A stretch of 64,000 bases of DNA from assembly GCF_000014425.1 (NCBI RefSeq), contig NC_008530.1:1302001-1366000 (forward strand). Reading direction: 5' to 3'. The translations under genes were made by a program, and so were the position numbers. A model generated the notes under the pieces. The model saw nothing but the letters and a program-made list of their open reading frames with translations. It had not been told where the DNA came from and searched no databases. The DNA comes from Lactobacillus gasseri ATCC 33323 = JCM 1131 (GTDB taxonomy: Bacteria > Bacillota > Bacilli > Lactobacillales > Lactobacillaceae). Positions 13,887 to 53,969 of the stretch are shown here, piece after piece (position 1 is the stretch's first letter; every line of letters starts with the position of its first letter).

Positions 13887-15356
13887 TTATTTGTCTACCT
13901 CGCTCACTAAAGCCTTAGTAAAGCTTTGCCAACCAGCTTCTCCATCTTTATTATTTTTAAAGACACCAGCGCATTCAAGAACTTGATCAAACACTTCAAC
14001 TAAAGCCTGTTGCAATATGCTATTTACATTCTCTCTAGTAATCTGATGCTCTGCTTTAATTTTCTTAGCCCACTCAAGATGGCTATCAGCTATTTCATTA
14101 TCTTCATTAAGTAAATATTTTTTAACTTCTTCTAGTTCTTTCTTAAGTCTTCCTGGTAGAATGGCCCTTCCCATAACTTCGATTAAGCCAATATTTTCTT
14201 TCTTAATGTGCCAAAGCTCAGCATGCGGGTGAAAAATTCCTAATGGATATTTATCACTAGTATTGTTATCACGAAGAACTAAATCTAAAACGAAATCTTC
14301 TCCTTCACGATGCATAATTGGAGTTACTGTATGATGTCTAGTTTCACCATCAAAAGCTTTAATTTGACGATCTTGGTCACTATAGTGATCCCAAAAATCA
14401 ATAATCTTACTGCCCAAATCAATTAAATCTAAAGAATTTTTACTAGTTAAGCGTAAATCACTCATAGGCCAGTCAACTACTCCAGCTTTAACTTCTGGGT
14501 ATTGATCAAAATTAATCACTTTTTTAATTTTCGCCTTCATCATTGGAAAGACATGACGGCCACCTTGATAGTGCTCGTGAGCGAGCATCGAGCCACCAAC
14601 AATTGGCAAATCAGCATTTGAGCCAACAAAATATTCTGGTAGTTGTTTTTCAATATCTACTAAATTAATTAAAGTTTGCTGATTAATTATCATCGGAATA
14701 TGCTTTTGATCTAAGAAAATACAATGTTCATTAAAGTAAGCATATGGTGAATACTGAAAGCCCCACGGACGGCCACCAATCATCATCCGAATTATTCGTA
14801 AATTACTACGTACATTCTTTCCATATCCGCCAACATAACCTTCATTTTCAAGACAAAGTGCACATTGAGGATACTTATTACCAGTACTATGAGCTGCAGC
14901 AGCAATCGCTTTAGGATCCTTTTCAGGTTTTGAAAGATTAATCGTAATTTCTAATTCATGATCCTTAGAGCTCTTTCCTGAAAAGACAATATTTTTAGCG
15001 ATAGCTTCTTTTTTTACGTAATTATTATCAACGCAAAGCTTATAAAACCAATCAGTTGCTGTATTAGCAGATTTTTGCATTTTTTGCCAGAAAATTTCAT
15101 TTACTTTTGAAGGCGTTGGCGTCTTTAAATCATATAACTTATCATTCAAAACTTCGCGTGAAGTATTGTCATCAGGGATAATTTTACGATCAACAGCCAT
15201 TTGAACAAGTTGTTTTACTGACGATTGTTTTCCATCATATTCTTGATCATCATCGCCTACTAAAGCCTTGATCTTATTAATTACATATACACGATCTAAT
15301 TCTTTATATGCTCCACTCGCAATGACTTCATCTGCAAATTTTTCAATAATCTTCAT
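13887..15356 (-). CDS. galT: UDP-glucose--hexose-1-phosphate uridylyltransferase (class II GalT)
   Basis: A 489-residue GalT of the Firmicutes class II type, clearly longer than the enterobacterial enzyme. Family motifs include PQCALCLENEGYVGGYGKN near residue 163 and MLAHEHYQGG near 258. It swaps UMP between UDP-glucose and galactose 1-phosphate, producing UDP-galactose and glucose 1-phosphate. AAGGGG lies 10 bases before the ATG. It sits 18 bases after galK. Confidence 0.96.
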   Translation of the reverse strand: MKIIEKFADEVIASGAYKELDRVYVINKIKALVGDDDQEYDGKQSSVKQLVQMAVDRKIIPDDNTSREVLNDKLYDLKTPTPSKVNEIFWQKMQKSANTATDWFYKLCVDNNYVKKEAIAKNIVFSGKSSKDHELEITINLSKPEKDPKAIAAAAHSTGNKYPQCALCLENEGYVGGYGKNVRSNLRIIRMMIGGRPWGFQYSPYAYFNEHCIFLDQKHIPMIINQQTLINLVDIEKQLPEYFVGSNADLPIVGGSMLAHEHYQGGRHVFPMMKAKIKKVINFDQYPEVKAGVVDWPMSDLRLTSKNSLDLIDLGSKIIDFWDHYSDQDRQIKAFDGETRHHTVTPIMHREGEDFVLDLVLRDNNTSDKYPLGIFHPHAELWHIKKENIGLIEVMGRAILPGRLKKELEEVKKYLLNEDNEIADSHLEWAKKIKAEHQITRENVNSILQQALVEVFDQVLECAGVFKNNKDGEAGWQSFTKALVSEVDK

Positions 15357-27431: not shown

Positions 27432-28103
27432 TTATCTACTAATTGTAAAACTATTTATTTTACAATTAGGATAAGCTTCTAATAACGCATCCCGAGCATG
27501 ATATAATGTCCGTCCCGTTGTATAAATATCGTCTAACAACAAAATCTTTCCTCGGACATTTTTGTTTCTAATTGCTGAAAATGTCTGCTTAGTTAACAAC
27601 CGCTCTTGTCTATTCTTTTCACCTTGAGCCTTTTTAGTATCCGCCTTAACCAATAAATCTGTCAAAGGAACTAGATTTTGATAAACAGAAGAAATTGTTT
27701 CAAATCCTCTTTTTCGTAAATGGCTGGGAGAACTAGGAATCGGGACATAATAATCAGCTTTTGGCAAAGAATTAACTAATTCAGCCAGTACATGACTCAA
27801 GACATAGTCGCCATAGCGTTTATACTGTACCATCAAATCATGAAAAGCTTCATTATATTGATATATAGCTTTATTGTCTAATAAATTGCCTGAGTATTTT
27901 TGTTGCCATATAACACAATCAGAGCACAATTCTTTTTTATTTATTTCTTTATTACAGCCTGAACATACGAGACCTCTCTTTTTAGTAAACTTTTGTAAGC
28001 AATCAGAACAGGCAAACTTTTCTTTAGGTTTAGCAAATGAAAAAATTCTTTCGTAATTAATTTGTCTCCTAAAGTTAGAATTACACAGTAGACATTTGCT
28101 CAT
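27432..28103 (-). CDS. comFC: ComF-family competence protein ComFC
   Basis: A 223-residue phosphoribosyltransferase-fold protein of DNA uptake. Several CxxC pairs at the N-terminus (CLLC at 4-7, CSDC near 32, CSGC near 47, CSDC near 60) suggest zinc binding; the PRT motif ILLLDDIYTTGRT lies near 187-199. It is thought to help ComFA drive single-stranded DNA into the cytoplasm. Its start overlaps the comFA stop by 4 bases. Its last codons form a perfect 12-bp inverted repeat. Confidence 0.92.
   Translation of the reverse strand: MSKCLLCNSNFRRQINYERIFSFAKPKEKFACSDCLQKFTKKRGLVCSGCNKEINKKELCSDCVIWQQKYSGNLLDNKAIYQYNEAFHDLMVQYKRYGDYVLSHVLAELVNSLPKADYYVPIPSSPSHLRKRGFETISSVYQNLVPLTDLLVKADTKKAQGEKNRQERLLTKQTFSAIRNKNVRGKILLLDDIYTTGRTLYHARDALLEAYPNCKINSFTISR
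27439..27469 (-). repeat. Inverted repeat in the 3' end of comFC
   Basis: CTAATTGTAAAA (27439-27450) and TTTTACAATTAG (27458-27469) form a perfect 12-bp stem with a 7-base loop, encoding the last residues of ComFC (NCKINSFTIS). No proper T run follows on the minus strand, so it is not a standard terminator; it may protect the 3' end or cause weak termination. Confidence 0.8.
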
Positions 28104-29368
28104 CTATTCATCATCCTAATCTGTTTCATCGCTTCTTGGATACTTTTAGTATATTTGTGATAACAAAATAAGACTAATCCATCTCGATCATCAGCACTTC
28201 TCCCCACTCTTCCTGCAATCTGAACTAAGCTCGGCGTATTATAAATTGGATCATCAGCAGCAATTACGATTACTTGAACATGCTTAAAAGTTACTCCTCG
28301 TTCTAAAATCGTTGTTGTCAACAAAATATCTGTTTCTCGCCTGCGAAAACTAGCAACTTTTGCTTGTCGATCCTTATCGCCGGCATATACACTAACAATT
28401 TTACTTGTTTTAAAAATTGAGCTTAAATACTTTTCGTAAGTTGACAATTCTTTAATTCGTGGGACAAATATTAAAAGTGGCTTTTTCATATCAAGGATTT
28501 TCTTAATTTGCTTAATCAAAGTCGGGTGAACTTTTCCCTTATTTGAAATATAAGACTTAAAAAAATATTTTTCTTTAGGTACTGGCAACAATCCTTGATG
28601 AAACCGCCTTTTAAGCAAAGAATAATTTATTGTTTTATTCTTCGCTTGTCTTAATAACTTGGAATCCGGCGTTGCTGTTAGAAAAAAAGTGCAACCCACT
28701 TTCTTTACTGCGTTTTCTGCCGCAAAATGCAACATCTTATTTTCATAAAAGGGAAAAGAATCTACCTCATCAATTACAATTAAGTCAAAAGCTTGATAAA
28801 ACTTTAAAAGTTGGTGTGTTGTACAAATCACGAATTGCTCATCCCTCACTTCGTGATGTTCACGTCCATGATATTTGCCAATTTTCACGTTTTCAAAAGC
28901 TGCTTGAAAACGTGGAAACAATTCGTCAACTACGTCAATTCTTGGTGTAGCGATCGCTATTCGGAAACCACCTTTTAAAGCTTCTTCTACTACCTTAAAT
29001 AACATTTCAGTCTTACCAGCCCCAGTTACTGCGTGAATTAAATGATTACGCCTTTCTTTAAAAGAATTTACTAATTCCCTGGAGATCAATTCTTGCTGTT
29101 CAGTTAATGTTTCCCTCCAGCTTAATGGCGTAAGTATTTTAGGATAATTACCATTCTCAACATTTCGCTCTAGTTCATCCCCTTCTGTTATTCTCCCTAG
29201 TCCAATACACTCTCGGCAATATCGTCGCCCATCTGGTAATTTTGATACTGCTTTGGTATTACACCGCTGACAAATTCCATTTATCATTGCAGGAACTTTT
29301 GTCGTTTCGCCGTTTATGTTATGGTTATTCTGATCAGATATCCACTGGCGTCCTTTTAATTTGGTCAT
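28100..29368 (-). CDS. comFA: Competence DNA helicase ComFA
   Basis: A 422-residue superfamily 2 helicase that powers DNA uptake on the inner side of the membrane. An N-terminal zinc motif CQRCNTK...YCREC (about residues 33-56) precedes the P-loop AVTGAGKTEM near 113 and the DEVD box near 195; C-terminal motifs include TTILERGVTF and QIAGRVGR. I chose ATG at 29368, with AGGGTG 6-8 bases upstream; a GTG at 29377 lies inside that site. It forms an operon with comFC and diverges from the YigZ-family gene, start codons 41 bases apart. Confidence 0.94.
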   Translation of the reverse strand: MTKLKGRQWISDQNNHNINGETTKVPAMINGICQRCNTKAVSKLPDGRRYCRECIGLGRITEGDELERNVENGNYPKILTPLSWRETLTEQQELISRELVNSFKERRNHLIHAVTGAGKTEMLFKVVEEALKGGFRIAIATPRIDVVDELFPRFQAAFENVKIGKYHGREHHEVRDEQFVICTTHQLLKFYQAFDLIVIDEVDSFPFYENKMLHFAAENAVKKVGCTFFLTATPDSKLLRQAKNKTINYSLLKRRFHQGLLPVPKEKYFFKSYISNKGKVHPTLIKQIKKILDMKKPLLIFVPRIKELSTYEKYLSSIFKTSKIVSVYAGDKDRQAKVASFRRRETDILLTTTILERGVTFKHVQVIVIAADDPIYNTPSLVQIAGRVGRSADDRDGLVLFCYHKYTKSIQEAMKQIRMMNR

Positions 29369-29394
29369 CAATATCACCCTATGTTAATTACGCA
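29369..29394 (-). promoter_or_regulatory. Candidate competence promoter motif at comFA
   Basis: On the minus strand TGCGTA (29394-29389) begins 26 bases before the comFA ATG and is followed by ATTAACATAGGGTGATA. Seventeen of 23 positions are the same before coiA. No sigma-A -10 is obvious here. The assignment to a competence sigma factor is inferred. Confidence 0.4.
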
Positions 29395-29409
29395 CTTGGA
29401 GGCGATTTT

Positions 29410-30075
29410 TTGTCATCAAAACAATTAAATTATTTAACAATTAGTAAAGCTGGTCAGCATGAACTAATTATTAAGAAAAGTAAATTTATTTGTTCTTTAG
29501 CCCGTACTAAAACGGTTGAAGAAGCTCAAGAATTTATTGAGCAAATTTCTAAAAAATATCATGATGCTACTCACAATACTTATGCTTATACTCTTGGATT
29601 AAACGATAACCAAGTTAAAGCAAGTGACAATGGTGAACCTTCAGGAACGGCTGGAATTCCAGAACTTAAGGCTCTACAACTGATGAAGTTAAAAAATGTA
29701 ACAGCAGTTGTCACCCGATATTTTGGCGGAATTAAGCTAGGAGCCGGTGGCTTAATTCGCGCTTATTCTAATTCCGTAACTGAGGCTGCACAAAATATTG
29801 GTGTTGTTAAGTGCGTTATGCAGCAGCGAATTCAATTTTCAATTCCATATAATCGAATTGACGAAATCAATCATTATTTAGAAGAAAATCGAATTTCAAT
29901 CGCTAACCAAGAATATACTACGAATGTCACTATTCAAATTTATCTAGACTTAGATCAAATTCAAAAAGTTGAAGATGACTTAATTAATCTATTATCTGGA
30001 AAAGTAGAATTTAATAAACTAGATCAAAGATTCAACGAAATTCCTGTTACTGATTTCAACTTTCATGAGCAATAA
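29410..30075 (+). CDS. YigZ/IMPACT family protein (UPF0029)
   Basis: A 221-residue cytoplasmic protein of the YigZ/YvyE family. The UPF0029 core shows ASDNGEPSGTAG (about 76-87) and VVTRYFGGIKLGAGGLIRAYS (about 103-123), followed by a small C-terminal alpha-beta domain. Members are linked to translation control (eukaryotic IMPACT) but the bacterial reaction is not established. I chose TTG at 29410 because GGAGG (29398-29402) lies 7 bases upstream, and no ATG follows near it. Its promoter must lie inside the divergent comFA coding region. Confidence 0.88.
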   Translation: MSSKQLNYLTISKAGQHELIIKKSKFICSLARTKTVEEAQEFIEQISKKYHDATHNTYAYTLGLNDNQVKASDNGEPSGTAGIPELKALQLMKLKNVTAVVTRYFGGIKLGAGGLIRAYSNSVTEAAQNIGVVKCVMQQRIQFSIPYNRIDEINHYLEENRISIANQEYTTNVTIQIYLDLDQIQKVEDDLINLLSGKVEFNKLDQRFNEIPVTDFNFHEQ

Positions 30076-34247: not shown

Positions 34248-34293
34248 CGAACTGACGTTCAATTATTATATTCCTCTAATTTTTATTACGCAA
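34248..34293 (-). promoter_or_regulatory. recA promoter with SOS box
   Basis: The minus strand reads TTGCGT (34293-34288), 17 bases, TATAAT (34270-34265), a good sigma-A promoter. Just downstream, CGAACTGACGTTCA (34248-34261) contains the LexA core GAAC-N4-GTTC over the expected transcript start. Confidence 0.82.
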
Positions 34294-34311
34294 AGTAACT
34301 TTATTTTTTTC

Positions 34312-52384: not shown

Positions 52385-52418
52385 CTAGTTGACTTTTGAG
52401 TCAGCTAGTTTTTTTTGC
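52385..52418 (+). terminator. spxH terminator inside the coiA coding end
   Basis: A 9-bp stem (52385-52393 with 52400-52408, one G.T pair) is followed by eight T. It lies entirely within the last codons of the opposing gene coiA. Confidence 0.82.
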
Positions 52419-53257
52419 AGAAAAATTAATATTGGACTCTTTTCTTTAGGCTCCCGTAATTTTAAGAAGAGTTCATCTGGGATATCTGCCACAGAATAAT
52501 GTAGTTGATATAATAGCGAAGCAATTTCTAATCCGAGTTTACTCTTTTGAGTAATTTGTTTTTGTAAATATACTTTTTGATCTTGAATATAACTCAGTTT
52601 ATTTCTTCTAGTAGATGGAATGAAAGTAAACAAACTAGCTACTCCTTTTTCATCTAATGAAAAAGTTTTTATATCATAGCTTAGTTCTGAACTAAGTGCT
52701 GCCATTAAAATATTATATTTTAACGTAATTACACAACTAAATGGATTAATTTCCAAATAGTACCATTGCCATTTTGCACTATATCTTAGAAAGATTTTTT
52801 GAGAATGGTTAATTTTATTTTTTAAATAATGCCTTTTTCCAACAATCCAAATATCTTTAATCTGCAACTTTTTATATAAGGCATGACGATGGGCAAATTC
52901 TGCCTCACTTAACGGTGCGCATTGTACTTCAAAAGATAAGTTGTTTTCTACTAATATGTCTGCTCTTAATTGCTGATCTAAAAGCGGAACTTCAACATCT
53001 GCTCGAATTCCATTTGCTTTTAGTGCAGTACACAACAACTGCTTTGCCTGTAAATGCTCCTCCTTTTCTCCGGTTCCCCTTACCTGATAAAAATGTTTAA
53101 AAAATGGCTTTTTTTCTTCTGATAAGATCAAAATCATTCGATGCTTGCAAGATGGGCAAAGATAAGATTCTTGATTTAACTTTTTTAATCCTTTACTAAC
53201 TTGTTCTGCTTCATTAATTGCTAAGACTAACTTTTGATTTAAAATAGCAGCATACAT
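52385..53257 (-). CDS. coiA: Competence protein CoiA
   Basis: A 290-residue CoiA-like protein. An N-terminal zinc-type pair CPSCKHRM (about 30) precedes a restriction-nuclease-like core with RADILVENNLSFEVQC near 120 (PD-D/ExK pattern). CoiA is needed for transformation after DNA uptake, probably in DNA processing or recombination. I chose ATG at 53257; an upstream ATG at 53269 has no ribosome site, and the chosen one has only a weak GGG. It lies after the mecA terminator with a competence-type promoter motif upstream. Confidence 0.85.
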   Translation of the reverse strand: MYAAILNQKLVLAINEAEQVSKGLKKLNQESYLCPSCKHRMILILSEEKKPFFKHFYQVRGTGEKEEHLQAKQLLCTALKANGIRADVEVPLLDQQLRADILVENNLSFEVQCAPLSEAEFAHRHALYKKLQIKDIWIVGKRHYLKNKINHSQKIFLRYSAKWQWYYLEINPFSCVITLKYNILMAALSSELSYDIKTFSLDEKGVASLFTFIPSTRRNKLSYIQDQKVYLQKQITQKSKLGLEIASLLYQLHYSVADIPDELFLKLREPKEKSPILIFLQKKLADSKVN

Positions 53258-53282
53258 TTTATCGCCCATTATTATATACGCA
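53258..53282 (-). promoter_or_regulatory. Candidate competence promoter motif at coiA
   Basis: On the minus strand TGCGTATATAATAATGGGCGATA begins 25 bases before the ATG, right after the mecA terminator. It matches the sequence before comFA in 17 of 23 positions. TATAAT is also present but there is no -35 at the right distance. Confidence 0.4.
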
Positions 53283-53311
53283 AAAAGGAGATGATTTTTT
53301 TCATCTCCTTT
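53281..53311 (-). terminator. Terminator of mecA
   Basis: An 11-bp perfect stem (53284-53294 with 53301-53311) and 6-base loop is followed by T on the minus strand. The coiA leader begins directly after it. Confidence 0.85.
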
Positions 53312-53315
53312 ATTT

Positions 53316-53969
53316 TTAATCAAAATATTGTCTTAGGTTTCCCAGAGCATCTTGTCTAATCAAGCACTTAGCATTTTTCTTTATTTTTTGGAATTGCTTT
53401 TCTGTCATTCCATTTCCATATTCATTAGCTATTACCCAAGTATCTTCTGGCTTCAGTTCAACATAATTGTCATCTAAGTAGGCTAAGTCTAAATAATATT
53501 CATGATGATATGTATATAGACTAGATGCTAAACCATCAACCTTTAATGCATCTGCTAGGGCAGCAACTAAATCAATACTATCAATCTTAAAGACTCTACG
53601 ATTATCGCTAATTAGTTTATCTTGATCATTAATTTCTGTTTTACGATCATCATTATCTGATCCAGCCCCCAATCCCTTTAACAGGTCACGTAATTGATCA
53701 TTGGGATTATCACTGACATCTTCATCACTGTCCGGTACTTTGGAAATAAGTAACTCTAATCCAGAACTACTTGGCATAACTTGAAAAGTAACTGGATCGC
53801 CTTTAGCAAAAGTATGATCTGTATCGACTTCACTTAAAATTTGATAGAAAAAATGTTGAATTTGACTTTTATTTCCTAATAAATCGAGCATTGTTATACC
53901 ACGCTCTTTAAGTTCATCCGCATCCATTGTTACACGAATGGTATTCTCACTTATTCTATGTACTTCCAC
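53316..53969 (-). CDS. mecA: Adaptor protein MecA
   Basis: A 217-residue adaptor for the ClpC/ClpE-ClpP protease. The N-terminal substrate-binding domain (MEVHRISENTIRVTM, about 1-65) and a C-terminal Clp-binding domain (about 125-217) are joined by an acidic linker. In Bacillus it delivers ComK and Spx; in lactobacilli ComX-type factors may be targets. It lies between spx and coiA, as in Bacillus. Confidence 0.93.
   Translation of the reverse strand: MEVHRISENTIRVTMDADELKERGITMLDLLGNKSQIQHFFYQILSEVDTDHTFAKGDPVTFQVMPSSSGLELLISKVPDSDEDVSDNPNDQLRDLLKGLGAGSDNDDRKTEINDQDKLISDNRRVFKIDSIDLVAALADALKVDGLASSLYTYHHEYYLDLAYLDDNYVELKPEDTWVIANEYGNGMTEKQFQKIKKNAKCLIRQDALGNLRQYFD

Follow-up and report, generated by a model that had tools for sequence, protein, structure and literature searches.

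A Conserved Competence Box Upstream of Lactobacillus Late-Competence Genes, Probably Read by a SigH/ComX-Like σ Factor

Results

A Box in Front of Late-Competence Genes

In Lactobacillus gasseri ATCC 33323 (= JCM 1131), coiA and, in a weak version that has lost the T-tract, comFA are preceded by a box composed of an A-tract, YYTTTTT, a GCGTA core, an AT-rich stretch and RTG. Almost all of ca. 40 Lactobacillus genomes have this box before comGA, comFA and coiA. The box is very probably the -10 region of late-competence promoters read by a SigH/ComX-like σ factor; recognition by this factor, the transcription start sites and the induction of the genes are what we infer from the evidence below. 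Features of the window (the whole stretch of 64,000 nucleotides that was analyzed) are collected in Table 1, where genome positions are marked as such.

Table 1. Features at the coiA, comFA and recA loci of the window and Rpn-family genes of the genome.
Feature	Position	Strand	Basis
coiA competence box CTCCTTTTTGCGTATATAATAATG, core GCGTA at 53281-53277	53267..53290	-	29.6 bits, best site of the genome
comFA competence box CCTCCAAGTGCGTAATTAACATAG, core kept, T-tract lost	29379..29402	-	9.3 bits, rank 32/1651
recA box-like site AGTTACTTTGCGTAATAAAAATTA, A-tract upstream	34277..34300	-	8.8 bits, rank 37/1651, this genome
coiA, competence nuclease-like protein	52385..53257	-	PF06054 CoiA_nuc, 73.5 bits
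comFA, DNA-uptake helicase	28100..29368	-	DEAD/helicase C domains, PriA-like matches
comFC, gene 2 of the comF operon	27432..28103	-	TIGR00201 comF, 75.5 bits, under the model cut-off
mecA terminator	53284..53311	-	11-bp stem, z = -5.3
mecA, adaptor protein, negative regulator of competence	53316..53969	-	PF05389, 151 bits
Divergent yigZ-like gene, GGAGG and TTG start	29398..29412	+	Sequence; TIGR00257 IMPACT_YIGZ
Rpn-family (PD-(D/E)XK) genes, genome starts	561527(-), 1621340(+), 926186(+), 686373(+), 1540372(-)		Boxed

The Upstream Regions of coiA and comFA

According to the original prediction, coiA and comFA have a promoter-like motif in common, placed equally far from the start codon of each. 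TGCGTA is indeed located on the minus strand, 25 nt ahead of the coiA ATG (53257), at 53282-53277, and 26 nt ahead of the comFA ATG (29368), at 29394-29389, and the two upstream stretches are identical at 17 of 23 positions. The accompanying warning that the hexamer is frequent by chance was also justified, with 19 copies in the window and 474 in the 1.89-Mb genome. The longer pattern TGCGTA-N8-10-RGGNGAT is present in the 1.89 Mb in two copies, which are the coiA and comFA sites themselves; the backwards control returned none. Only the 5′ half of the proposed motif stood, being the conserved box that was recovered in a blind scan of the genome, while the 3′ half is the Shine-Dalgarno sequence. 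Thus, the GGG(Y)GATA end, which had been counted as part of the motif, is to be read as a ribosome-binding site and predicted leader instead, and the ATRGGGYGATA segment that comprises them holds 8 of the 17 agreeing positions. Since TGCGTA is common and these eight agreements fall in the Shine-Dalgarno half, the resemblance of the two sites is weak when taken alone.

No σA promoter (TTGACA and TATAAT, 16-18 nt apart on the coding strand) precedes coiA, and the comFA region yielded a single 9/12 match, which is at chance level; the claim that neither gene has a convincing pair of this kind is therefore correct. The terminator said to cut coiA off from mecA is present as well (-14.6 kcal/mol; Table 1), and its T tail is the T-tract of the coiA box. 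A T-rich stretch upstream of the core is found in coiA and in the genus consensus but is absent from comFA of this clade. There, CCTCCAA stands in its place directly before the core, both here and in the relatives nearest to this genome; on the opposite strand this sequence supplies GGAGG to yigZ, whose ribosome-binding site (29398-29402; TTG start at 29410-29412) is overlapped by the comFA box. The comFA gene is present in a single copy per genome and adjoins comFC; among relatives, its core is conserved and its T-tract is intact in most.

Conservation of the Box

The coiA, comGA and comFA genes were gathered from 41 Lactobacillus genomes. In nearly every upstream region, TTTTTTGCGTA(A/C/T)TWAWTA is located right before the ribosome-binding site. 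A 24-bp weight matrix (consensus YYTYTTTTTGCGTAHTWAATAWTG, ca. 23 bits) was built from the boxed upstream regions of these three genes in relatives, 80 out of 84, with the genome of the window and its nearest relative excluded. Genus-wide, the box was also found before genes that had not contributed to the matrix, namely dprA (30/30 loci) and comC (at least 22/25 loci, counted by eye). Several comC copies score low, yet the CGTA core sits directly before the start. The core of the genus can be written as (G/A/T)CGTAHTWA. In 68 sites from non-training genes, a T-tract abuts the core and an A-tract is centered ca. 19 nt before it, and (G/A/T)CGTA is followed by an AT-rich stretch, T(G/A) at +12/+13 and then the Shine-Dalgarno sequence. 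Genomes of the same genus are non-independent samples, a limitation that leaves untouched the agreement seen among unrelated genes.

Inspection by eye of comGA in 38 family genera revealed a CGTA box in most of those sampled, and such a box was also seen in named Ligilactobacillus, Limosilactobacillus alvi, Companilactobacillus, Leuconostoc, Oenococcus and Enterococcus lemanii; no comGA box was recognized by eye in Weissella confusa, Lacticaseibacillus kribbianus, Sporosarcina and Halalkalibacter. In one genome of another genus, comGA is preceded by TTTTACGAATATA, i.e., by CGAATA, and this site is, judged by its sequence, a link between the CGTA and CGAATA forms of the box.

Blind Scan of the Genome

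The relatives-only matrix was applied blind to the whole 1.89-Mb genome to which the window belongs. Nine sites exceeded 20 bits and 16 exceeded 17 bits; the corresponding counts were 0 and 1 in every control, namely the reversed genome and three Markov genomes of third order. Ten late-competence genes, seven of which were absent from training, were within the top 69 of 1651 upstream regions, a ranking built on crude gene models. The scores were 29.6 bits for coiA, 24.7 for comEA, 21.7 for comGA, 18.6 for both dprA and rpsF-ssb, 11.2 for radC, 11.1 for dut-radA, 9.3 for comFA, 8.8 for recA and 6.1 for comC. The enrichment that had been proposed as a check was thus observed in this genome before comGA, comEA, dprA, rpsF-ssb, radC, dut-radA, comC and, weakly, recA, and genus-wide before comGA, comFA, coiA, dprA and comC, which supports the proposed reading of the motif as a local counterpart to the late-competence box of streptococci.

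One further window site, a 19.8-bit box on the plus strand at 15007-15030, lies antisense within a 489-aa minus-strand ORF and is probably the one chance match expected at such a score.

The Putative Late-Competence Promoter

Transcription is predicted to start at G53267 for coiA and at G29379 for comFA, giving leaders of 10 and 11 nt, respectively; these positions were chosen because of the conserved TG at +12/+13 and the core-to-start spacing in pneumococcus. In the mechanism that we propose, a SigH/ComX-like σ factor of 185 aa would bring RNA polymerase to the A-tract, the pyrimidine/T-tract and the GCGTA core, and transcription would begin ca. 13 nt past the core C, which at coiA and comFA would be the first G of the Shine-Dalgarno sequence. 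The boxes of the two genes would be equidistant from the ATG because this is the minimum room for box, start and Shine-Dalgarno sequence. Both promoters would be packed into their neighbors, the T-tract of coiA into the mecA terminator tail and the box of comFA over the yigZ ribosome-binding site. Accumulation of the σ factor would then switch on the scattered operons together (comG, comE, comF, comC, coiA, dprA, radC and others). Counting against this mechanism are the core, which is unlike the streptococcal CGAATA, and the low scores of the comFA, comC and recA copies in this genome. In addition, recA and ssb of Latilactobacillus (Lactobacillus) sakei are barely induced by SigH (PMC3364868), yet both genes have box-like sites here.

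Three other explanations of the data were weighed. A chance likeness between two upstream regions, both AT-rich and both with a Shine-Dalgarno sequence, would be in keeping with the abundance of TGCGTA and with the share of agreements that fall in the ribosome-binding site, but it would leave unaccounted for both the conservation of the box, across genus and family, ahead of competence genes that are unrelated to one another and the blind scan with its clean controls. The enrichment of the box before other competence genes refutes it, and we regard its probability as negligible. A similarly poor, if slightly better, case can be made for an operator bound by ComK or another activator or repressor, with transcripts issuing from a σA promoter. 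The A- and T-tracts are superficially like ComK half-sites, and proteins of the ComK family have been reported in some Lactobacillaceae (PMC3616900). However, the AAAAN5TTTT spacing is not preferred and no ComK-like ORF was found in this genome with an approximate query sequence, so a ComK-type box was rejected; furthermore, the box leaves too little room before the start codon for a -10 element downstream of it, and TG is conserved at the distance of a start site. We consider an operator of any kind very improbable.

The remaining explanation concerns comFA alone. The box may be active at most competence genes but undergoing decay at comFA in this clade, which would leave comFA as less than a full member of the regulon. 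The exchange of the T-tract for CCTCCAA, which this genome shares with its closest relatives, speaks for such decay, but GCGTAATTAA is retained in all of them, and the exchange coincides with GGAGG of yigZ on the other strand and may be a trade-off. Decay of the comFA box is unlikely, though less so than the operator, and a functional late-competence promoter remains our preferred reading of both window sites.

The σ Factor Gene and Its Upstream Region

The genome encodes a σ70 family protein of 185 aa (genome 370457-371014; TIGR02937 above cut-off), and homologues of its gene are present in the 20 relatives fetched. The gene comes after genes read as dut-radA-gltX-cysS-mrnC-rlmB, with a sugar-uptake insertion in this genome; we take these surroundings to be those of sigH in B. 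subtilis. The sigH locus of L. sakei is reported to be similarly organized (PMC3364868).

A LexA-like dyad, RAACN4GTTC, is located ahead of the σ gene at genome position ca. 370380, and also in most relatives. GAACN4GTTC with at most one mismatch was detected in 16 of 21 σ gene upstream regions, two of them with perfect copies, while the two sets of control regions yielded 1/30 each. In this genome, GAACN4GTTC also precedes recA and an apparent umuC-type polymerase gene, as expected for LexA. Upstream of recA, the minus strand carries both the box-like site (34292) and a perfect dyad (34249). The dyad before the σ gene suggests, as far as a sequence match can, that competence may be under SOS control.

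Rpn, DUF3990 and Other Boxed Genes

The scan also retrieved genes of other kinds. In this genome, the box lies 40-55 nt before the start of five full-length Rpn nuclease genes, which belong to TIGR01784/PF12784. Genus-wide, 27 of 38 Rpn upstream regions scored at least 9 bits, in 18 groups with dissimilar flanks, compared to 0/25 for control rpoD loci at each of five offsets. A similar box precedes Rpn genes of two other genera and is absent from those of Ligilactobacillus. DUF3990 genes (404689(-) in this genome) are boxed in six of the eight genus genomes that have the gene, one of the six boxes being weak. Rpn genes are likely to be members of the competence regulon.

Outside genes of recognized families, a 26.6-bit box at genome position 38973 (minus strand) is followed by ca. 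120 nt, to ca. 38850, that fold as a long end-to-end helix and a terminator. With no convincing reading frame in this stretch, it is a candidate for a competence-induced small RNA. A 23.8-bit box at genome position 286370(-) precedes a gene for a protein of 147-160 aa, for which no matches were obtained in Pfam, NCBIfam and PHROGs. Elsewhere in the genome, positions 600640-640739 recur 40086 bases on; both copies of this perfect 40-kb tandem duplication contain an integrase-like gene. The duplication is either a prophage or island present twice or an artefact of the assembly.

Discussion

The streptococcal ComX (SigX) box, also called com-box or cin-box, has the same layout as the box described here: a T-rich stretch, an (M/G)CG core, an AT-rich stretch and a start, predicted in our case, ca. 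13 nt past the core C. In S. pneumoniae, the ComX motif TTTTTNHNNNYTHTTMCGAATADWNWRRD, derived from regions upstream of mapped starts, places the start at +13 from the core C, equal to the spacing deduced above (PMC6560143). The gene set (comG, comE, comF, coiA, dprA, radC, radA and ssb) and the small SigH/ComX-like σ factor are also common to both systems. Like the ComX box, the Lactobacillus box precedes late-competence operons and is rare elsewhere, and a SigH/ComX-like σ gene is present in the genome. The two differ in that the core here is CGTAHTWA, which does not match the ComX octamer TACGAATA (CGAATA), an additional conserved A-tract is located upstream, and the σ gene resides at a SigH-type locus. 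By sequence comparison, the Lactobacillus box is therefore a variant of the ComX/SigX-type box and not the same box, a classification made because of the different core.

The closest experimental counterpart is the SigH regulon of L. sakei, a member of the same family with a SigH-type locus and the same late operons. Upon overexpression of SigH, comFA, comEA and comGC were induced 286-, 261- and 421-fold, respectively, and comC and dprA 608- and ca. 2000-fold, as measured by qPCR; that work gives no promoter motif, consensus or box and does not list Rpn or DUF3990 genes (PMC3364868). We found no earlier description of a Lactobacillus competence box in the literature searched, which leaves out most subscription journals, so that an earlier report is possible.

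The Rpn proteins of E. coli, RpnA-E, belong to the same family as the products of the boxed genes; they are DNA endonucleases and increase recombination that does not depend on RecA (PMC5350276); Rpn proteins have also been proposed to be anti-phage toxins restrained by an internal antitoxin (PMC10327210). No report tying Rpn genes to competence or a competence promoter was found in the literature searched, to which the same coverage applies. A role of Rpn proteins in DNA uptake is a matter of speculation. More broadly, it is conceivable, though we hold it somewhat doubtful, that Rpn and DUF3990 proteins are standing members of the competence regulon that are produced during DNA uptake and act on incoming or resident DNA, either to promote RecA-independent acquisition or to police it, and that LexA controls the σ factor, with DNA damage opening the program.

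To our knowledge, most lactobacilli have DNA-uptake genes, but natural transformation is not known to occur in them. A promoter box defined this precisely could serve as a reporter in the search for inducing conditions, and one trigger worth trying is suggested by the LexA-like dyad upstream of the σ gene. It also yields a genome-wide list of regulon members and allows one to check whether the regulon of a strain is intact. Placing Rpn nucleases at the moment of DNA uptake makes a role there testable. The box is very probably a widely conserved on-switch for the natural-transformation genes of lactobacilli.
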